Below are positions 3,479 to 20,944 of a DNA stretch of 20,944 bases, one piece after another. Position numbers and translations under genes: made by a program. The stretch covers positions 1 through 20,944 of IMG/VR virus record IMGVR_UViG_3300043449_001626, one strand, 5' to 3'. The notes beneath the pieces are model-generated. The model made no database searches. It was not told where the DNA came from and saw nothing but the letters and a program-made list of their open reading frames with translations. How positions within the stretch are numbered: position 1 is the first letter of the stretch; each line of letters opens with the position of its first letter. Origin of the DNA: a virus.

Positions 3479-3811
3479 AGCTTGCTTGATCAGCATAGAA
3501 GTCTTCTCGAGTTCTAGAAGTTCTTTGTGGTGGTCGGTGAGATGGTCTAGGTATTCGCCATCGACATCCATGCGAAGGCCTTCCCCACGGGTGAACGTGG
3601 AACAGGTCTCGGCATAGTTGAGCTCTTTGGCTTTTTCGTAGAACTGATCGAATGGGGCATCTGGATGAAGCCCCATGGCACAGTTGAAGGCAGTGCCCTC
3701 AACCGTGTAGTTGCTGTACCCCTCATCCCGAAGGATGTGGTACCGGCATTCTGTGCACTTGGCGAACAAGCTCACATACGGCCTGCGGTGGGTTTGCTTA
3801 ACAAAGGCCAT
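3476..3811 (-). CDS. Cys-rich protein after RNAPII catalytic subunit (111 aa)
   Basis: A 111-residue protein with CTECRYH near residue 19 and further cysteines at FNCAMG and ETCSTF, so a zinc site is likely. The rest is acidic with a Leu-rich helical end. Its ATG lies inside the last codons of the RNAPII catalytic subunit (14-base overlap), which implies coupled translation. N4 RNAPII needs helper proteins such as gp2 for middle promoters; whether this gene serves that role cannot be told from sequence. Confidence 0.75.
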   Translation of the reverse strand: MAFVKQTHRRPYVSLFAKCTECRYHILRDEGYSNYTVEGTAFNCAMGLHPDAPFDQFYEKAKELNYAETCSTFTRGEGLRMDVDGEYLDHLTDHHKELLELEKTSMLIKQA

Positions 3812-5039
3812 AGTTGGAGTGGCGAATCACATCACCCAAGTTGTTGGACAACTTGTTGAAGGTGCCTGGGGTTCCATGGATTTGGCTCAGCAGGTCATCC
3901 AGCAGGTTGCTATCGGCCAGGTCAGCCAGGATTTCCTTGTACTGCCAGCGCACCCAGTTGATGTTGTTGGGATGTGCTTTGAACTCGTCATGGATGGTGA
4001 CGAGGTGGAAGGGCTGGTACTGCAGCATGCCGTTGACGATGGTGGCCAGCTTGTTCAGGTGCTCTGGGGACATGAAACGGGTGTTGTCAGCTGTGAGGAG
4101 CGGCAGGATCACGACGTCGGCAACGGTGCTGCGTTTGTAGTGATCCAGGTACTTATTGATGGGATCTTGTGGATCCGCAATGTAAGCACATGGGTTCAGG
4201 TGGCGAGAGATCATCTCGATTTCCAGCAGGGCAGCAGCGTGCTCCACAACCTCACGGTCGTAGTTACAGCGGCGGTGCATCGAGCGCAGGATGTAAGCAT
4301 CTACGCTGTGGGTCAGGTTGGCGGCATTGCTCAGGCCAGCCTTCTGCCCTTGGTTCTCGTAGAACTCGTAGGTGAAGGTGGCATGGTCCAACTCGTCAAC
4401 TTCAATGCGTGCTTCCTTTTTGGTCATGACCTTGATGCGAGCATCGAAGCCGTCGGGCAGCACCCAGGCATGTTGCAGGGCATAGGGTTGCCAGCTGGCC
4501 AACAAGTCCTGCAGCAGTTCCCAGGCGCCCGGAGCAATAGCTTTGGCTGCTTCATAGAAGGCGCTGAGCTCTTTGGTTTCCTCACCGAAGATGATCTTTG
4601 GCTGGGCTTTGGAGCCGTAGAAGCTGGTCATCAGAGCTGACTTGGCGTCCTTGCGGGACACGGCCAGGCTGTTGCCCAGAATGACTTGCATTGCTTCAGT
4701 GCAGGCACTGTAAGCATCAGCGCGCACTTCAGGGTTGACCAGGCCAGTGGCCTCAGCACCCGCGTGACAGCCCGTCAGAACGGACATCACTTGGATACCA
4801 GAGCAGCAGCCATCGACGCCCACGAGGTGGCCAGAAGGCAGACCAGCTTGAGCCTTACGGATAGCAAGGACAGCCTTCATGTACAGCGGAGCCGTCTCTG
4901 CAGACACAGAGAGGTTCTCGAGTTGGACCAAGTTGTCTTCAGCCCAGCTGATACGGTCTTCAAACGTGAGTTTGTCGAGCCCATAGTGGGTGGCAGCATC
5001 AATCAGCAGATATTGCCAGCCGGTATAAGTCTTGAACAT
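3798..5039 (-). CDS. T7-like RNA polymerase, catalytic C-terminal subunit (N4 gp16 / RNAPII)
   Basis: This 413-aa subunit carries the palm and fingers of a T7-family RNA polymerase. Motif A is GVDGCCSGIQ with D76 (T7 D537). Motif B is R129, K133 and Y141 in SRKDAK ... SFYGSK, the same spacing as T7 R627, K631, Y639. Motif C is VTIHDEF with H350-D351 (T7 H811-D812). The first residues (GWQYLLIDAATHYGLDK) match T7 just after about residue 450, where the other subunit stops. Between HSVDAY (about residue 244) and HD lie about 106 residues against 27 in T7, so about 80 residues are inserted. The chain ends YGLC rather than the T7 FAFA. AAGGA precedes the ATG. It would transcribe middle genes together with the product at 5515-6423. 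Confidence 0.95.
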   Translation of the reverse strand: MFKTYTGWQYLLIDAATHYGLDKLTFEDRISWAEDNLVQLENLSVSAETAPLYMKAVLAIRKAQAGLPSGHLVGVDGCCSGIQVMSVLTGCHAGAEATGLVNPEVRADAYSACTEAMQVILGNSLAVSRKDAKSALMTSFYGSKAQPKIIFGEETKELSAFYEAAKAIAPGAWELLQDLLASWQPYALQHAWVLPDGFDARIKVMTKKEARIEVDELDHATFTYEFYENQGQKAGLSNAANLTHSVDAYILRSMHRRCNYDREVVEHAAALLEIEMISRHLNPCAYIADPQDPINKYLDHYKRSTVADVVILPLLTADNTRFMSPEHLNKLATIVNGMLQYQPFHLVTIHDEFKAHPNNINWVRWQYKEILADLADSNLLDDLLSQIHGTPGTFNKLSNNLGDVIRHSNYGLC

Positions 5040-5303: not shown

Positions 5304-5518
5304 GGCACATCCAGTATCAGTAGATGGGCCTTGAAGGCAGTGGGGAAGTTGTCAGGTTTGACTTCTTTGAGGTGTCCGCCCAGCCACATCCCCCAGGTGG
5401 GAGATTGGCGGTCGGCACCCATGTCAAGGCAGTAGTAGCCTTGGCAGTCGGTGAGCTCTTCCGGTTCATTGGCTTCCTTGAAGTTGCCCATGCGGTAGAG
5501 GTAGTAGCGTGATTTCAT
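5300..5518 (-). CDS. unknown protein between RNAPII subunits (72 aa)
   Basis: A 72-residue protein with many Tyr and Gly residues (MKSRYYLYRMGNFKEA, GYYCLDMGADRQ, WGMWLGGH). The ATG overlaps the TGA of the RNAPII N-terminal subunit as ATGA, and its own stop overlaps the next GTG. It reads as a compact beta-rich protein. No family is recognised. With the 84-aa gene it separates the two halves of the polymerase. Confidence 0.75.
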   Translation of the reverse strand: MKSRYYLYRMGNFKEANEPEELTDCQGYYCLDMGADRQSPTWGMWLGGHLKEVKPDNFPTAFKAHLLILDVP

Positions 5519-6423
5519 TCAGGTACTCCAGTGACAACCTCTTCTTGAGCGAGCTCAATCGAGGCTTTCTTGAAGGCAGTGCCCTGCGTAGTGATGTGGT
5601 ACCCACTCGCATAAATGCGGCCACGTTTATCCACCTTGTGGGTGAGATAGAAGCGGTTGTCGCATTGCACCATCAGGTTGTAGAACTTGTAGGACTGGGT
5701 CTTGAAGTCCCGCCACAAGTCTTCTTTTTCCTGGGTGTCGAGCTCGAACGTGGGTTCTTCCTCAACCTTGGACAGGAACTCAGTGTCTAGCCTTAGCGGC
5801 ACACTGTTCATCAGGTTCAGGACATCCAGACAGATGTCTCCATCGTGGTGGTTGCCTGTGCCCAATATCAGGGTGTCGTTGTGGGTCAGGTACCCGCTAC
5901 TGAAGTTGTGAGTCAGCTCCAGTGGCTTGCACACCATGGGTGGCAAGTACTGGGAGTTCTCAATGAAGTCCACCAAGTTGACTGGCAATGCCATCCTAGA
6001 TACCAGCGTGAGGCTGGCCATCTTGTCTGGCTTGTCGATATCGAACAGGTCTGTTTGACACAGAACTGCGAGCAGTTCTCCTACTGTGGCGATAGCCTCA
6101 GTCTTGTCAGAGAACTTCAGTCGACTGGCAATCTGGGCACTCACCGAGGTGAATAGCTCAGGTCGCATGTAGTAGGCCACGCCTACCAAGATGTCGGTGA
6201 CCAGCTCCAGAACATCAAGGTTCTTCAGCTGCTCAATCCTTTTCATCTTGGATTGGTAGTACTCGCCGGCCATGTATTTGTGCACCAGGTTGACACCATC
6301 CCAACGTCTGATATTGGTCTCGACATCTGCCTCGATGAAAGCGCGAAGCTTGGCATCGATGTGCTTGCGGTTGTACCGCTCCTCATTCATTTCTTGCAGG
6401 ATCACCTGCTTAATCGTCTCCAT
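5515..6423 (-). CDS. T7-like RNA polymerase, N-terminal subunit (N4 gp15 / RNAPII)
   Basis: The 302-aa product starts at the ATG 6421-6423, preceded by TAGGAG; an in-frame upstream extension to 6501 crosses a hairpin and has no good ribosome site. It matches the N-terminal and thumb/palm-entry part of T7 RNA polymerase. About residues 159-176 resemble the PPKPW region, and DKRGR at 265-269 is the T7 DWRGR motif, followed by IYASGYHITTQG and a stop near the position of T7 residue 450. The region before the PPKPW-like segment is about 100 residues shorter than in T7, so the promoter-recognition domain is reduced, as in N4 RNAPII. It heads an operon whose mRNA begins close to hairpin EP4. Confidence 0.95.
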   Translation of the reverse strand: METIKQVILQEMNEERYNRKHIDAKLRAFIEADVETNIRRWDGVNLVHKYMAGEYYQSKMKRIEQLKNLDVLELVTDILVGVAYYMRPELFTSVSAQIASRLKFSDKTEAIATVGELLAVLCQTDLFDIDKPDKMASLTLVSRMALPVNLVDFIENSQYLPPMVCKPLELTHNFSSGYLTHNDTLILGTGNHHDGDICLDVLNLMNSVPLRLDTEFLSKVEEEPTFELDTQEKEDLWRDFKTQSYKFYNLMVQCDNRFYLTHKVDKRGRIYASGYHITTQGTAFKKASIELAQEEVVTGVPE

Positions 6424-6439: not shown

Positions 6440-6479
6440 GGACATACCAGCGCGCCGGGATAGCGCCTGCCACATGTCC
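6440..6479 (-). promoter_or_regulatory. 5' leader stem-loop of the RNAPII mRNA
   Basis: The minus strand can fold as GGACAT ... CAG-GCGC - 7-nt loop - GCGC-G-CTG ... ATGTCC, with the outer 6-bp arms at 6474-6479 and 6440-6445. If transcription starts about 11 nt from the EP4 loop, this stem begins three or four bases from the RNA 5' end, just upstream of the Shine-Dalgarno. A 5'-terminal stem of this kind could protect mRNA or affect translation (inference). Confidence 0.5.
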
Positions 6480-6500
6480 GTCTTCCCGGCCGGTAGGCCA
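6477..6500 (-). promoter_or_regulatory. early hairpin promoter candidate EP4
   Basis: GGCC GGTA GGCC (6488-6499, plus strand) matches the CC-GGTA-GG core of three other sites. The downstream side on the minus strand (GGGAAGACGG) is a weaker match to the AGnnATGG shared by EP1-EP3, with one extra base. It lies before the RNAPII operon. Confidence 0.55.
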
Positions 6501-6554
6501 AGAGGAGCGCGACAACGGTCGACTGTCTTTGCTGTGGTTCAGTCCACCACTCAC

Positions 6555-6592
6555 AAAAAAAAATAGGCCACCACTCGTGAGAGTGATGACCT
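6555..6592 (-). terminator. strong intrinsic terminator of an early unit
   Basis: The minus strand has a fully paired 12-bp stem (AGGTCATCACTC / GAGTGGTGGCCT, some G-T pairs) with loop TCAC, then A and nine T. It closes the unit of the 89-aa gene and separates it from EP4. Confidence 0.9.
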
Positions 6593-6593
6593 A

Positions 6594-6606
6594 CTTAGGA
6601 GCGAAC
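6594..6606 (-). promoter_or_regulatory. anti-Shine-Dalgarno arm in the tail of an early mRNA
   Basis: On the minus strand this reads GTTCGCTCCTAAG, 3 bases after the stop of the 89-aa gene and before its terminator. It is perfectly complementary over 13 nt to the RNAPII ribosome-binding region at 6426-6438. It could pair in read-through RNA or as a separate RNA. Confidence 0.55.
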
Positions 6607-6609
6607 GGA

Positions 6610-6879
6610 TTACTCGAGGGCGAAGCCGGAAGCGTCGCCTGGGACAGCCGATTGGAACTCCATCTCGAGCTTGCTCAGAATCTGAGCGACGCGCGACGGG
6701 TCTTCATTCAGCCACTGCAGCAAGGTCTTCTCGCTGTGCTTGGATTCCTTGAGCGGAATAGCACCGAGCTTCTTGCGTTTGCCATCTTTCGAAGGCAGGT
6801 ACAGGTTGATGAACCCTTGGGCTTTCCAGCTGTCGTTGTTGGCTTCAGGGGTGCGAGTGGTGTTGGTGTTGAAAGACAT
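6610..6879 (-). CDS. early phage protein (89 aa), unknown function
   Basis: GGAG lies before the ATG at 6879; longer in-frame starts would cross hairpin EP3. The protein has a Thr/Asn-rich start, then a conserved-looking core, GFINLYLPSKDGKRKKLGAI, which reads like a beta hairpin with a basic loop, then a helical part with TLLQWLNEDPSRVAQILSKL. Similar 80-100-residue proteins with a LYLPSKDG-type core occur in phage early regions, but I know no function. It is the only gene between EP3 and a strong terminator, so it is probably expressed alone and early. Confidence 0.8.
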   Translation of the reverse strand: MSFNTNTTRTPEANNDSWKAQGFINLYLPSKDGKRKKLGAIPLKESKHSEKTLLQWLNEDPSRVAQILSKLEMEFQSAVPGDASGFALE

Positions 6880-6916
6880 GTGAGACTCCAAAGATAAAAG
6901 ATTGTCGGCAGGATTT

Positions 6917-6939
6917 GCCATTTCTCGCCCGGTAGGGCG
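6917..6939 (-). promoter_or_regulatory. early hairpin promoter candidate EP3
   Basis: CGCCC GGTA GGGCG (6926-6939, plus strand): 5-bp stem and 4-nt loop. On the minus strand it is followed by AGAAATGGC, matching AGTCATGGA of EP1 and AGGGATGGA of EP2. The putative RNA then starts with a small stem GGCA - 5 nt - TGCC. Confidence 0.65.
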
Positions 6940-7023
6940 TGCACCCAGACAAAAGAACAACCCCCACAGCAACGCAAAGAGCGCAGCATTGTGGAGGAAG
7001 TCGGGTGTTTTGGTTGATGCGAA

Positions 7024-7116
7024 TCAACCGCGATATGCAAGCATGGCTCCTATCCCACCCCAAAGGATGAGATTGAGCATCACGAGTGCAGCTTGTTTGA
7101 GCTTGGCTTTATACAT
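7024..7116 (-). CDS. tiny membrane peptide (30 aa)
   Basis: An ATG at 7116, with AAAGGG upstream, opens a 30-residue frame ending at 7024. A basic start (MYKAKLKQ) is followed by one hydrophobic helix (AALVMLNLILWGGIGAMLAY), the classic shape of a small inner-membrane peptide. It is the last gene of the EP2 unit, 15 bases after the 41-aa gene. Early membrane peptides in N4-like phages may alter host uptake or growth; here that is only a possibility. Confidence 0.6.
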   Translation of the reverse strand: MYKAKLKQAALVMLNLILWGGIGAMLAYRG

Positions 7117-7131
7117 AGGGTTTACCCTTTC

Positions 7132-7257
7132 TTAGTGAAGTTCTAGGTGGTCATACACCAGTGGTTCGAACACGGTGTTTTCGGTGGTGAGGCAGTCAAT
7201 CAGTTCATCGCTGAACTGTTCGACGGCATCGACGAGGTCGTTGAGAAGGTCATTCAT
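7132..7257 (-). CDS. small acidic protein (41 aa)
   Basis: AGGAG lies 7 bases before the ATG at 7257, a good ribosome-binding site. The 41 residues are acidic and helical (MNDLLNDLVDAVEQFSDELID) with one cysteine and an aromatic end. It overlaps the stop of the preceding 63-aa gene by 8 bases. Small acidic early proteins often bind and inhibit host factors, but no family is recognised. Confidence 0.65.
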   Translation of the reverse strand: MNDLLNDLVDAVEQFSDELIDCLTTENTVFEPLVYDHLELH

Positions 7258-7441
7258 GAGTAGTCTCCTGAGGTTGTGAAGAAGGGTTGTAATGGCGCTC
7301 GTCATCTAACCGAACATATTCGGTGATGACGGTTTCAGGTTTCAAGCGCAAGGCCTTGGCCACCTGAAGTGGAGGCAGAGCCTGGCACCAAGCCGAATAG
7401 ATATCAGCCTTGGTTTCTACGGTGCATTGAGAGATGGACAT
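7250..7441 (-). CDS. small protein with possible HTH (63 aa)
   Basis: AAGGAG precedes the ATG at 7441. Residues about 10-40 (KADIYSAWCQALPPLQVAKALRLKPETVITEYVRL) resemble a helix-turn-helix in which LQVAKALRLKPETV would be the turn and recognition helix. A polar tail follows. Early location suggests a regulator, though the fold is only suggested by pattern. An in-frame extension to 7537 is less likely because it would overlap the preceding gene without a ribosome site. Confidence 0.7.
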   Translation of the reverse strand: MSISQCTVETKADIYSAWCQALPPLQVAKALRLKPETVITEYVRLDDERHYNPSSQPQETTHE

Positions 7442-7451
7442 AAAGAACTCC

Positions 7452-7673
7452 TTAGTTGGATGGATAGCGTTGCTCGAAGCGGACCACATTGCGCACCAGA
7501 AAAGCAGCAATGAAGGCTTGAGCAGCCGCAAAAGCAAAAGGTATGTACTGGCATGGCTCTGGCCAGAAAAGGCCTAGAACAAGCTGTCCGCAAGCAGAGA
7601 TGGCCATGAACATGGCAACACCGAGTTCACGGTGGATGTAGAACAGTTGTTTGATTCGTTTAGATGTCAGCAT
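7452..7673 (-). CDS. small two-pass membrane protein (73 aa)
   Basis: GGAG precedes the ATG at 7673, which is chosen over an ATG at 7721 lying close to the EP2 start point. A basic N-terminus (MLTSKRIKQLFYIHRE) leads into two hydrophobic helices, about residues 18-38 (AMFMAISACGQLVLGLF) and 46-62 (YIPFAFAAAQAFIAAFL), then a basic end. It is the first gene of the EP2 unit. Its ribosome-binding site is in the second arm of a perfect 9-bp inverted repeat in the leader (7676-7684 / 7714-7722). Function unknown. Confidence 0.7.
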   Translation of the reverse strand: MLTSKRIKQLFYIHRELGVAMFMAISACGQLVLGLFWPEPCQYIPFAFAAAQAFIAAFLVRNVVRFEQRYPSN

Positions 7674-7675
7674 GA

Positions 7676-7722
7676 GATGTCTCCATTGGTTGATTGAAGT
7701 GGGGATGTCAACGGGAGACATC
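7676..7722 (-). promoter_or_regulatory. leader inverted repeat covering an early ribosome-binding site
   Basis: GATGTCTCC (7714-7722 on the minus strand) and its perfect complement GGAGACATC (7676-7684) are separated by 29 nt. The second arm holds the GGAG used by the 73-aa membrane gene, so a fold would hide it. Confidence 0.55.
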
Positions 7723-7724
7723 TT

Positions 7725-7747
7725 TCCATCCCTCGTCCGGTAGGACG
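7725..7747 (-). promoter_or_regulatory. early hairpin promoter candidate EP2
   Basis: CGTCC GGTA GGACG (7734-7747, plus strand), then AGGGATGGA downstream on the minus strand. Stem sequence differs from EP1 and EP3 while pairing is kept, which argues for a functional hairpin. Confidence 0.65.
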
Positions 7748-7945
7748 TTGAGCCTATCGGCTAAGTATCGGTATGGGGATTAAGTTAGTTAGTGCTCGCT
7801 AACGTGAGGGTTATCACTGAACTGAGACTTCGCTCAGTCTTTCTCCCAAATACCTGCAGCTGAACCTATCGGTTCAGGGCAAGGATTGCCCATGCAGTTC
7901 TCCCTATCTAGAACTGACTGACTCTGAGTTGTGTAGTTGTGTAGA
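7748..7945. other. noncoding hairpin cluster
   Basis: About 200 bases (within the 303-base gap 7674-7976) hold no convincing gene but at least five inverted repeats on the plus strand: AGCC TATC GGCT (7751-7762), CTCGC TAAC GTGAG (7795-7808), ACTGAG 6 nt CTCAGT (7821-7838), TGAACC TATC GGTTCA (7861-7876) and, directly beside it, GGGCAA GGA TTGCCC (7877-7891). A tandem 8-mer AGTTGTGT occurs at 7927-7942. It may be a structured RNA, a set of protein sites or polymerase-binding hairpins. Confidence 0.5.
7834..7893 (-). CDS. possible 19-aa leader peptide
   Basis: AGGGAG lies 6-7 bases before an ATG at 7893; the frame codes for MGNPCPEPIGSAAGIWEKD and stops at 7834. The start codon touches the arm of a 6-bp hairpin with a 3-nt loop. 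The peptide is too short to judge by composition and no promoter is seen right before it, so it may be chance. Confidence 0.2.
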   Translation of the reverse strand: MGNPCPEPIGSAAGIWEKD

Positions 7946-7971
7946 AAGGGAAACCCCACCGAAGTGGGGTT
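7945..7971 (-). terminator. intrinsic terminator after the first early gene
   Basis: On the minus strand AACCCCAC TTCG GTGGGGTT forms an 8-bp stem with a stable TTCG loop, followed by a broken pyrimidine tract (TTTCCCTTT). It lies 5 bases after the stop of the 64-aa gene, so termination may be incomplete. Confidence 0.7.
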
Positions 7972-7976
7972 GGAGC

Positions 7977-8171
7977 TTAGGCTTGGAGGGCTTTAGCTTT
8001 GGCAGTGGCGATAGCTTGGTCTTGTTCGATTTCCCAGACTTGGACGTGCTTGTCACCGACGGTAGCGATGCGGTGGACGATGTCGCCAGAGGCTGAGAAG
8101 GCGAGAGCGTATTTCTCGAGACCAGCACAGAGGCTGACGAATACTGAGAGGGCTGCGCGGATTGCATTCAT
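7977..8171 (-). CDS. first early gene, small protein (64 aa)
   Basis: AGGAG precedes the ATG at 8171 and the gene lies about 40 bases after EP1. It has an Ala/Val-rich N-terminal part (MNAIRAALSVFVSLCAGLEK), a beta-like middle and an Ala/Lys-rich helical end. No family is recognised. It sits alone between EP1 and a terminator, so it is expected to be among the first phage products in the cell. Confidence 0.75.
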   Translation of the reverse strand: MNAIRAALSVFVSLCAGLEKYALAFSASGDIVHRIATVGDKHVQVWEIEQDQAIATAKAKALQA

Positions 8172-8207
8172 AGTGATAACTCCTGATGTTCATGAACGGA
8201 CGGAATG

Positions 8208-8230
8208 TCCATGACTCACCCGGTAGGGTG
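8208..8230 (-). promoter_or_regulatory. early hairpin promoter candidate EP1
   Basis: CACCC GGTA GGGTG (8217-8230, plus strand), followed on the minus strand by AGTCATGGA. The expected RNA would begin near the A of ATGG, about 11 bases from the loop as in N4 virion-polymerase promoters, and would then fold GGAC - 5 nt - GTCC and GTTCATGAAC. Confidence 0.65.
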
Positions 8231-8587
8231 GATGAGGAGTAGAGGTATAGCGGAGCTATAGGGGGGGGTAGTCTAGGAATTGTGTAGTGGACTACCAGTA
8301 CTGCATCCGTACCCCGCTACAAAAAATCTGAAAAACCCGACCCCTAAAATTTTGCAGATTGCGCACAGAAAACCTGTGCCTAATTTTTAAGCACAATGCC
8401 CGACCGAAGTTGAGGGGTTTGGTTTTTATGTAAACTGCGGCTTGTCCGCTCCCCCCCCCCCGGTTTCACCTACCCTGCGTACTTATATTTAATGGTCTTA
8501 TATATAGCTATTTAGTATTACACTCTATTAGCTATTTTCTTTTTGGTTTACTATAGGAACCCTATAAGGTGATTTCTAGAGGAACCA
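8231..8587. other. divergent noncoding junction with homopolymer tracts
   Basis: No gene is seen in these 357 bases between the leftward early genes and the rightward virion genes. Contents: hairpin TATAGC GGA GCTATA (8246-8260), G8 (8261-8268), GTAG TGGA CTAC (8284-8295), terminator-like GCACAG 5 nt CTGTGC plus T-rich tail on the plus strand (8363-8388), C11 (8451-8461), an AT-rich block (about 8480-8580) with direct repeat TAGCTATTT (8505-8513, 8529-8537), and TATAGG AAC CCTATA (8552-8566). The AT block probably holds the late promoter. In N4 the genome ends lie between the equivalents of these two gene sets. Confidence 0.5.
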
Positions 8588-15071: not shown

Positions 15072-16304
15072 ATGGCTGATCCTCAAGACACCAAGCAACA
15101 ACAGGAACCTGATTACCTCTCCATGTCGGACGAGGAAATCATGAACATGACGGGCCCTGGGCCTGCTGCTGTTGGTTCCACCGAAGACGAGGACGACTCA
15201 GCTGATCCAGCTGATGACGGTGCTCAAGACGACCAGGCTGCTGGCGACGCTGATGCTGCAAATGCCGAGGGCGATGCCCAAGCAAACGCTGACGAAGGCG
15301 AGGACGACGACGCAGCTGCCGAGGAAGCCGGTACGGCGACCGACGGCAAAGCGCAGTCGGCGGACGATGCCGAGGGCACAGAACAAAATCAACAGGATCA
15401 AAAACCTGCTGACCAAAAAGATTCTCCAAAGGCTGAAGATAAGCCTGCAGATGAATCTACAATTGATTTCAAGCAAGAGTACGAGCGTCTTCTGGCTCCA
15501 TTCAAGGCAAACGGGCGAGACATCAAAGTCAACTCAGTTGACGAAGCTGTCACCCTGATGCAGATGGGAGCCAACTACAACAAGAAGATGGCCGCTCTGA
15601 AACCCAATCTGAAACTCATGAAGTTGCTTGAAAAAGCAGAACTTCTGAGCGAAGAGAAAATCAGTTTCCTGATCGACCTGAATCGTAAAGATCCAGCCGC
15701 GATCAATAAACTGGTGAAGGACAGCGGAATTGATCCTATGGATCTGTCCGCTGACAAAGCAAGCGCGTATAAGCAGTCTACTTACACTGTTGACGACCGC
15801 GAGATAGAGCTGGATACGGTCCTTGATGAAATTCAAGGAACTCCTTCGTACACCCGGACACTCGATATTGTTGGCACTAAGTGGGACGCTGCAAGCAAAG
15901 GTGTGATTGCTGCCAATCCTGCCATTATGCGAGTCATCAATGAACACGTTTCAAGTGGCATTTATGATCGCATTCAGAAAGAGATTGACAACGATCGCAT
16001 GTTTGGTCGCTTGGTTGGTGTATCTGATATCGAAGCCTACCGGCAAGTCGGTGACCGACTGCACGCTCAGGGCGCGTTTAACGCAGTGGCTCAGGGTAGC
16101 TCCCAAGCCAAAGCGCAACAAGCCGCTGAGAAAGTTGTGGTCCAACCGAAACCGAAGCAGGTCGATGGTGATGCACTTAAAGACAAAAAGCGGGCTGCAA
16201 GCTCCACTAAAACTGTTGTCTCTAACTCGATGCCGGCGGACTTCAATCCCCTGTCGATGTCTGATGAAGAGTTCAGCAAACATGTGAACAAACAATTTCT
16301 GTAA
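15072..16304 (+). CDS. scaffold-like / head-assembly protein (N4 gp57 position)
   Basis: Just before the capsid gene, 410 aa, with features of a scaffold: a long disordered, very acidic N-terminal part (about residues 35-130, Asp/Glu/Ala/Gln), a helical middle (about 131-340), and a basic C-terminal region (KPKQVDGDALKDKKRAA) of the kind that binds coat protein. The heptad LSMSDEE is present twice, at about residues 16-22 and 394-400, near both ends. AGGAG precedes the ATG. A direct functional proof is not possible from sequence. Confidence 0.8.
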   Translation: MADPQDTKQQQEPDYLSMSDEEIMNMTGPGPAAVGSTEDEDDSADPADDGAQDDQAAGDADAANAEGDAQANADEGEDDDAAAEEAGTATDGKAQSADDAEGTEQNQQDQKPADQKDSPKAEDKPADESTIDFKQEYERLLAPFKANGRDIKVNSVDEAVTLMQMGANYNKKMAALKPNLKLMKLLEKAELLSEEKISFLIDLNRKDPAAINKLVKDSGIDPMDLSADKASAYKQSTYTVDDREIELDTVLDEIQGTPSYTRTLDIVGTKWDAASKGVIAANPAIMRVINEHVSSGIYDRIQKEIDNDRMFGRLVGVSDIEAYRQVGDRLHAQGAFNAVAQGSSQAKAQQAAEKVVVQPKPKQVDGDALKDKKRAASSTKTVVSNSMPADFNPLSMSDEEFSKHVNKQFL

Positions 16305-19125: not shown

Positions 19126-20944
19126 ATGGGATGGAATCCGTTCAAAAGCGAAGAGGTCACACGGGTGGCCACTTCTGTTTCTCGGCTCATCGACAACGAT
19201 GCCGTTCCTGATGCCGTCAAGTCTGGCTCAATCAAAGCGCTCTTCAGTGATGGCAACGTCGCTGACTATGTCATGGAAGAGCTCGTGGCTAGTATCGGTA
19301 TGCGCGCTGAAAAAATGTACCGGTACGCTGAGAACCAATACACCTGGGGCATGCCGTCCGGTGAAATCTATTCAGCCAACCAAGCCCGCCCGCAAGTAGA
19401 AGCGTTTCTCGAGCAAGCCGAGGGCGCGCAGATTGCTATTGAGTATTCGCACTACGGTTCTCCGAACGTGCAGCACATGGGCTGGATGGCTTTGATGGAT
19501 GACCATGGGTACAACCCAGACACCAACCAGTTGGCCAACCTCACCACTCAGAAGGGCACGCCTGTCTACTTGAAGGACATGATCGTTGTGGTACCTGAAA
19601 GCCAGTTGGCTACGTTGGACAAAGCTATGCTTGAGCAGTGGGGCATGTCTGCAGCTGCCGGCTACACGCCGCAACGCCCTGCTTCTGGTCCTGAGCTGGC
19701 TCCGTACACAGCACACACCCCGATCGCTATCAGCAGCGCAGCTACAGAGCTGCACCTTGTCGTGAGCTACGTGTGGAAAATGGGAGCCACTGTGATGGAA
19801 GATTCCTTTACGCTTTCTCACGCAGCATTTGATTACCGGGATGGCTACTTCATGACGAAGTATGTGGTGGGTACCGAGACCAAGTACTGGGCCTACCTGA
19901 ACAAGTCAGGTGTGCATTCTGAGCTTGACAACATCTTTGTAGATGGGCCGGCCGAATCGGGATCGTATTTTCCGTTCACCTACTTCCGGTATGCCAAGTC
20001 ATCGACTTCTTCAAACAAGACAACCCAGGCCTACAAGACTTCCAAGAAGATGATGAAGACCTTGGGGCTGGACTTTGATGCCGTTGGTGCGGCTGTTGAT
20101 GAGAACCCAGACATTGCCGACATCGAGCAGGCCATGCTGGTGTTTGCTGTTCCCCCGGTGTCCACCAACAAGCAAGAAAACCGCTATTTGTTCGACTACT
20201 TCAACACGCTACGAGAAGCCACGGAGCAAGACAACTCAGCAGCCGTTGCGCAATCGTTGCGAGTTCTGGGTGGTGGTTCTGGCTTCCAGTGGGGCAGCAG
20301 TGCGCACACCGTCATCATTCAAGACCAGCGCTTCAAGAAAGCCCTGAGCCACAGCGGCATCTACAAGCGGATCCGCGCGGGCGTGATCGGTAGCGTCGAC
20401 ACCTACACCAGTGCGTTCGAGACGATCAACGTCGAACAGGCTGTGTCGAACTTTGAAACGGGCGAGCTCTATACGGAAATTGTGCCCACCAAGACCCACA
20501 CGTACCGCCATCAGATCTCGGCCAACATGTACGAAGAGATCGTGGTGATTGGTTTGCAGATGACCTATTACATCTACGGTGGCTACAACACCGTGGGTGA
20601 CGAGACGGATTCCATTCTTCTGATCCCCATCGACAAGACGGTGTCAGAGGACTATTTAATCTCTGATCGAGAGATCCTGTATTCCCGGGCCCTGCACTTT
20701 GTGTTCAACAGTCGCGTTGTGACCAAAGTGAAGTGGTATCAGCAAACTTGGTTTCGAGTCTTCCTGATTATTGTGGCGATCGTTTTGACGGTCATTGACG
20801 TGGGATCAGATGGGGGTTCTTGGATTGCTACAGCCTTAGAGTTAACCGGGACAGAAGCTATTGTGGCTACGGTGATTTTCAACCTGGTGGTTGGTATGGT
20901 CATCATGCCAAAAGTGTTTAAAGTCTTTGTCAAAGTGTTTGGTC
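19126..20944 (+). CDS. large virion protein with membrane segments (N4 gp52-like), partial
   Basis: An open frame runs from the ATG at 19126 (AGGA 7 bases upstream) through the right edge, 606 codons without a stop. It starts MGWNPFKSEEVTRVATSVSR. A long soluble part with many Tyr and Gly (YVVGTETKYWAYLNKSGVHS, SSAHTVIIQDQRFKKALSHS) is followed by two hydrophobic helices near residues 542-556 (VFLIIVAIVLTVIDV) and 580-598 (ATVIFNLVVGMVIMPKV). This matches the place and look of N4 gp52, a virion protein that probably interacts with the host membrane during ejection. The virion RNA polymerase (gp50) should lie further right. The gp52 name is by order and character only. Confidence 0.75.
   Translation, partial: MGWNPFKSEEVTRVATSVSRLIDNDAVPDAVKSGSIKALFSDGNVADYVMEELVASIGMRAEKMYRYAENQYTWGMPSGEIYSANQARPQVEAFLEQAEGAQIAIEYSHYGSPNVQHMGWMALMDDHGYNPDTNQLANLTTQKGTPVYLKDMIVVVPESQLATLDKAMLEQWGMSAAAGYTPQRPASGPELAPYTAHTPIAISSAATELHLVVSYVWKMGATVMEDSFTLSHAAFDYRDGYFMTKYVVGTETKYWAYLNKSGVHSELDNIFVDGPAESGSYFPFTYFRYAKSSTSSNKTTQAYKTSKKMMKTLGLDFDAVGAAVDENPDIADIEQAMLVFAVPPVSTNKQENRYLFDYFNTLREATEQDNSAAVAQSLRVLGGGSGFQWGSSAHTVIIQDQRFKKALSHSGIYKRIRAGVIGSVDTYTSAFETINVEQAVSNFETGELYTEIVPTKTHTYRHQISANMYEEIVVIGLQMTYYIYGGYNTVGDETDSILLIPIDKTVSEDYLISDREILYSRALHFVFNSRVVTKVKWYQQTWFRVFLIIVAIVLTVIDVGSDGGSWIATALELTGTEAIVATVIFNLVVGMVIMPKVFKVFVKVFG

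Follow-up and report, generated by a model that had tools for sequence, protein, structure and literature searches.

The promoters read by the virion RNA polymerase (vRNAP) of phage N4 follow a small set of sequence rules, namely a hairpin loop with a 5′ G and a 3′ A, a C-G closing pair, and -10G, -11A/G and +1C (PMC4496689). Extrusion of the N4 hairpin needs the 5′ G, the 3′ A and the closing pair (PMC4496689), and DNA mini-hairpins of unusual stability are described for two loop types, GNA and GNNA, each with a G-C closing pair (PMC4686876). N4-like early promoters have been reported with three-base loops (PMC3715699; PMC6027278; the KP8 table in PMC6950046). Here we analyze four hairpins with a four-base GGTA loop, EP1 to EP4, in the virus record IMGVR_UViG_3300043449_001626. 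The record, all 20,944 bases of which are called the window below, comes from an N4-like phage (Schitoviridae) and contains the family markers RNAP1, RNAP2, an N4-type TerL, a portal and a major head protein, as judged by PHROG and Pfam matches. EP1-EP4 are very probably vRNAP promoters of a GNNA-tetraloop variant.

The four hairpins compared with N4 promoters

EP1 (CACCC-GGTA-GGGTG, positions 8217-8230), EP2 (CGTCC-GGTA-GGACG, 7734-7747) and EP3 (CGCCC-GGTA-GGGCG, 6926-6939) have 5-bp stems, and EP4 (GGCC-GGTA-GGCC, 6488-6499) has a 4-bp stem. All of them lie on the + strand, the putative template, and EP1, with its GNNA-type loop, is predicted to fire leftward. The sequence CCGGTAGG occurs on the + strand at 6490, 6929, 7737 and 8220, each time as the core of one of these hairpins, and the sites head leftward early units, the position before the RNAP1 gene included. 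The four coordinates and the shared CC-GGTA-GG given in a preliminary description of this DNA are exactly right, and the paired change of outer stem bases that it reported is borne out by the stems of EP1-EP3. The same holds for the one-sided sequence on the minus strand, which reads AGTCATGGA, AGGGATGGA and AGAAATGGC after EP1, EP2 and EP3, respectively. That description had made its proposal depend on the motif not being equally common elsewhere; the record holds just one further CCGGTAGG (16036-16043), which is on the opposite strand, has a 3-bp stem and lies far from the early block.

In an early region rich in GC, inverted repeats could also arise by chance, as short stems are common and that of EP4 is just 4 bp long. 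In 400 dinucleotide shuffles of the window, however, GGTA-loop hairpins closed by C-G on a stem of 4 bp or more appeared 0.08 times on average and twice at most, against four in the window itself. Its strict form (a stem of at least 5 bp and a GG at offset 11) is present three times against 0.04 in the shuffles. Coincidence is refuted by the comparative data given below, in which the sites are orthologous in place and covary across dozens of genomes, and its probability is negligible. Nearest-neighbour hairpin energies did not separate the template from the non-template strand, in a model that may miss the special GNNA loop.

Like N4 P1-P3, the window sites combine a template-strand hairpin, C-G closure, a loop that begins with G and ends with A, a GG at a fixed distance and a place before early units and RNAP1; like N4 P1 and P2, they have a 5′ RNA stem opening at the start. 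The inverted repeats are perfect, with 5 bp in EP1-EP3 and 4 bp in EP4 against the 5-7 bp of N4, and GGTA supplies -10G, the purine -11G beside it and a final A if positions are numbered by the downstream arm. The differences are a loop of four (GGTA at all four sites) rather than three bases (GAA/GGA), a C rather than a G at -8 in every stem, and a spacer that is 2 nt longer. Since the three-base loop and -8G fail and the start distance differs, we class EP1-EP4 not with the canonical N4 promoters but as a sister variant, which would share their mode of action.

Counterparts in relatives, spacing and transcript start

A protein search with the window's RNAP1 yielded 42 loci, and the exact motif CCTACCGG was found as a promoter-like hairpin upstream of RNAP1 in none of them. 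The five nearest loci (L006-L010, RNAP1 80-82% identical) bear hairpins at about -47, -475, -1240 and -1600 from the RNAP1 start, which correspond in place to EP4, EP3, EP2 and EP1. Their sense loop is TCC, i.e. GGA on the template, the same loop as in N4 P2. The counterpart of EP1 is a triloop AC-TCC-GT (sense) about 1.6 kb upstream of RNAP1, and that of EP4 is GGAC-TCC-GTCC at the same place. The EP3 site is orthologous, as the sequence TGGCAAATCCTGCC downstream of it is identical in the window and in the triloop relatives. Because the nearest relatives bear N4-type hairpins with three-base loops at the same four places, EP1-EP4 are best read as orthologous promoters in which the loop has changed from GNA to GNNA.

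The stems have covaried as well. EP3 orthologs anchored on the downstream GGCAAATCC comprise 10 distinct arm pairs, and base pairs 1-4 are formed in every genome, a figure that is somewhat favoured by the procedure, in which each row was given the loop length and spacing that paired best and was kept if at least three pairs formed. With arms exchanged between genomes, pair 2 formed in just 44% and pair 3 in just 47% of cases. Swaps of G-C to C-G on both EP3 arms are directly visible. A DNA scan for further TACC-loop copies of EP3 returned one true relative (L049) and five unrelated matches.

The distance from hairpin to GG was counted from the downstream arm and does not increase in hairpins with the longer loop. 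Among hairpins with a T..C sense loop at all loci, a GG stands at offset 11 in 99 of the 173 triloop and 22 of the 36 tetraloop hairpins on the sense strand, as opposed to 2/38 and 1/16, respectively, on the opposite strand. A second triloop group, to which L006-L010 belong, has the GG at offset 10. As positive controls, the same scan recovered N4 P1, P2 and P3, with the GG at offset 9, and the four annotated early promoters of KP8. The predicted hairpin promoters of the Pseudomonas phages LUZ7/LIT1 (PMC3715699) resemble those of the window in family and position, and three of the four LUZ7 early sites found here have the GG at offset 11; the loops of LUZ7/LIT1 differ in being 3 nt long (PMC3715699; also seen here). 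Predicted promoters of Klebsiella phage KP8 (PMC6950046) and of CB1-like Pectobacterium phages (PMC6027278) are of the same kind, again with 3-nt loops (printed for KP8, described for CB1).

The preliminary description had placed an ATGG at the N4 distance from the loop. Its GG is indeed strongly conserved, but it occupies the 12th-13th nucleotide past the loop instead of the 10th-11th as in N4. Measured against the N4 start, which is the 10th nucleotide after the loop, the GG lies 2 nt further out at EP1-EP3 and 3 nt further out at EP4. The more likely +1 is the first G of this GG and not the A of ATGG, which agrees with the N4 rule that the template base at +1 is C (PMC4496689). From the spacing and N4 homology, transcripts would then begin at 8210 (EP1), 7727 (EP2), 6919 (EP3) and 6479 (EP4).

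A 5′ RNA stem begins at the putative starts of EP1, EP3 and EP4. For EP1 it is GGAC-ATTCC-GTCC (8198-8210, minus strand, predicted +1 at 8210), for EP3 it is GGCA-AATCC-TGCC, opening at 6919, and at EP4 the initial GGACAT pairs with ATGTCC at 6440-6445. Across the genomes, a 4-bp RNA stem opens exactly at the GG in 56 of 170 promoter sites, while shuffles gave 9 on average and 17 at most, and N4 P1 and P2 likewise open a 5′ RNA stem there. N4-like early transcripts thus tend to start with a 5′-terminal stem of the form GGNN...NNCC, possibly a stability or displacement signal.

These stems bear on the alternative, raised in the preliminary description, that the hairpins function at the RNA level, in the leaders of early mRNAs whose promoter is a different one, further upstream. 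The hairpins are indeed close to the start codons that follow them, an RNA copy would fold as well, and read-through transcripts from upstream would contain them. However, the conserved GG, which lies downstream of the DNA hairpin, is precisely where the second stem starts, as in N4 transcripts, and the GG keeps its spacing despite the change of loop length. No sigma-70-like promoter beyond chance was found near EP1-EP4, a terminator-like site separates EP4 from the preceding unit, and the template-strand loop is of the DNA-stable GNNA kind (PMC4686876). A purely RNA-level role is therefore highly unlikely.

Loop class and the polymerase trees

Nearly every genome keeps to one loop length. A single loop length was found in 35 of the 36 genomes with at least three sites (label permutation gave 25 at most), a count whose rows are not independent, as many are mutually related metagenome contigs. 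In template terms all tetraloops are GNNA and all triloops GNA, in a scan that accepts only loops with the outermost G and A. The sense loops are TACC in the window; TGCC, TTCC, TACC and TACC in L049; TTCC, TACC, TGCC, TGCC and TACC in L059; TACC and TGCC in L061; and TGTC, TTAC, TTAC and TGAC in L064. Tetraloops are also present in the Erwinia phages Frozen and Ea9-2 (template GTAA and GGAA, before gp1 and gp2) and in the Rhizobium phages RHEph22 and RHph_I1_6 (template GTAA). These four phages share with the window GNNA tetraloops and a GG start, and their sites are at the N4 P1/P2 places or before an N4 gp2-like gene; they differ in their N4-like spacing (offset 9), in having GTAA/GGAA and not GGTA loops, and in being distant genomes. 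In the open literature searched we found no paper describing their hairpins and no mention of a virion RNA polymerase together with a tetraloop, which may have been mentioned earlier elsewhere. The suggestion that the 4-nt loop marks a new promoter subclass thus stands insofar as it is a variant of N4-type sites, but it is not unique to the window phage and recurs in several lineages.

Candidate hairpins with other sense loops were seen in MIF8 (ATA), BUCT194 (AGA), the contig G031 (TCT) and ZC03 (CAAG), listed as L127, L130, L164 and L132, respectively, suggesting that the family may have still more loop classes.

On a tree of RNAP1 and RNAP2 the window falls inside a triloop clade (100/100), and the tetraloop label requires at least four changes on supported branches. 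A single tetraloop origin on this tree is rejected, as grouping the tetraloop genomes gave a p-AU of 2.5e-53. The vRNAP tree is different. There, L049, L059 and L061 form one clade (100/100) with L018 and L019, the promoters of which have a GTA triloop, and two changes are needed. L061 has its RNAP1 in another place, and an RNAP1/2 tree made to unite it with L049, L059 and the L018-type genomes is rejected (p-AU 2e-7). The two trees disagree strongly also in other places, e.g. the vRNAPs of L008-L010 group with L076/L062 (the disagreement concerns the L008-L010, L061 and L011 records). It appears that vRNAP genes have moved separately from the RNAP1/2 genes and been exchanged between N4-like phages; a published survey detected none among the hallmark genes that covaries with vRNAP (PMC10654107). 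Loop size has switched several times among related phages, all promoters of one genome together. Promoter class appears to follow the injected polymerase, that is, the vRNAP tree better than the RNAP1/2 tree, because the three tetraloop genomes share one vRNAP clade though they are split on the other tree. The tetraloop vRNAPs of this clade are three only, a modest sample in which single contigs could be assembly chimeras. Contigs G028-G030 have vRNAPs of the tetraloop clade and lack the early region, and the vRNAP of G031 is 29% identical to that of L059.

The vRNAP contact residues could be aligned to N4 only within the N4-like branch. In Frozen and RHEph22, both with tetraloops, the residues with which N4 reads the loop, R119 and W129, are missing; the triloop phage C121 (promoter loop TGC, template GCA) lacks them too. 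R904, which reads -8G in N4, is kept in Frozen (-8G) and is E in RHEph22 (-8C). As a triloop phage has lost R119 and W129 too, these patterns are suggestive only, and changes in the loop reader seem to accompany loop changes generally.

The sites might also bind a different factor, serving as RNAP1/RNAP2 promoters or as operators of a regulator; they are palindromic and repeated before early units, and the genes of the middle polymerase adjoin them. Against this, relatives have N4-type vRNAP hairpins at these places, and loop class tracks the vRNAP tree and not the RNAP1/2 tree, which makes such a role very improbable. The proposal of N4 virion-polymerase-type promoters is supported: triloop N4-type (GGA/GAA) hairpins are at the same places in relatives, the spacing between hairpin and GG and its strand bias are strongly non-random in a scan that recovers N4 P1-P3 and the KP8 sites, and the loop class, uniform per genome, fits the vRNAP tree more closely than that of RNAP1/2.

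Several points weigh against assigning EP1-EP4 to vRNAP, besides the relatedness of the rows mentioned above. EP4 is an imperfect site, weaker than EP1-EP3, with its 4-bp stem and its GG one base further out. The template base at -8 is C in all four hairpins whereas N4 vRNAP needs -8G; in triloop relatives it is G, A or C. The spacer exceeds that of N4 by 2 nt, and spacers longer than in N4 (offset 10 or 11) are common to the triloop relatives and LUZ7. The genome L015 breaks the uniformity of loop length with one extra TGCC tetraloop-like site among its triloops. Finally, the vRNAP gene of the window phage is outside the record, and the match between polymerase and loop class is thus a prediction.

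What has been computed is the homology of the positions, the stem covariation, the spacing, the uniformity of loop class within genomes and the repeated switches. The mechanism that they suggest is that, after DNA entry, supercoiling would extrude the short hairpin on the template (+) strand. The injected vRNAP would then bind it, reading loop and stem, and begin RNA synthesis at the GG 11-12 nt beyond the loop, transcribing the early genes and RNAP1/RNAP2 in the leftward direction. At N4 early promoters, initiation depends on supercoiling and SSB and is resistant to rifampicin. Compared to the N4 GNA loop, GNNA (here GGTA) keeps the 5′ G, the 3′ A and the C-G closing pair and has one base inserted on the upstream side. 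As mini-hairpins with either GNA or GNNA are unusually stable in DNA, extrusion would remain possible after a switch from one to the other, while what the polymerase has to recognise would change. The window phage would be expected to carry a tetraloop-type vRNAP. We propose tentatively, as an idea slightly more apt to fail than to hold, that loop length acts as a lock, by which the injected polymerase and its promoters are specific for each other, such that an exchange of vRNAP class converts the whole early promoter set between GNA and GNNA. The window phage would be a recent case and should carry a vRNAP of the L049/L059/L061 clade, because its trunk genes are among those of triloop phages and yet its four promoters are tetraloops.

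Genomic setting and significance for N4-like phages

The terminase, portal and head genes of the window point rightward, RNAP1 (5515-6423, minus strand; N4 gp15-like, PHROG 2166) and RNAP2 (3798-5039, minus strand; N4 gp16-like, PHROG 2051, PF00940) leftward. The window's RNAP1 matched 463 phage records, every one below 60% identity, and the DNA similarity to the closest named phages is limited to short matches, for which reasons the window phage looks like an undescribed branch of Schitoviridae. The record ends before the vRNAP gene, which in relatives with long records encodes a protein of about 3,370-3,720 aa. A search with the last gene of the window (19126-20943) had a 58%-identical relative as its sole match.

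The first early gene (7977-8171, minus strand, 64 aa) and the small open reading frame behind EP2 (7452-7673, minus strand, its start at 7673 chosen by a GGAG ribosome-binding site) have no family match. Behind EP3 lies a gene for 89 aa (6610-6879, minus strand; PHROG 6271, annotated 'toxin') that is kept in most relatives, and the EP3 and EP4 units are separated by an intrinsic terminator-like site at 6561-6596 on the minus strand. A perfect hairpin TATAGC-TCC-GCTATA (sense) with an N4-type loop is situated just upstream of EP1 (8247-8261) and has no GG at promoter distance; a comparable additional hairpin, GTAGC-TGC-GCTAC, occurs at this place in L008. Two palindromes between EP2 and the first early gene, reading AGCC-GATA-GGCT (7753-7764) and CTGAACC-GATA-GGTTCAG (7860-7877) on the minus strand, have GATA loops, which are also of the GNNA kind, but on the opposite strand to the EP hairpins. 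Between the early and the structural half, the divergent intergenic region contains a run of eight G (~8262-8269) and one of about 11-12 C (8450-8461).

With N4 vRNAP as the model enzyme for transcription at DNA hairpins, the rules come from three promoters in a single phage. A naturally recurring variant in loop length, together with a polymerase tree, turns the question of which residues read three or four loop bases into a testable problem of co-evolution. It also adds cognate pairs of promoter and polymerase that may not cross-react. For many N4-like genomes, early promoters could be found by a simple rule: a T-N-C or T-N-N-C loop, a GG 9-11 nt on, and a 5′ RNA stem.

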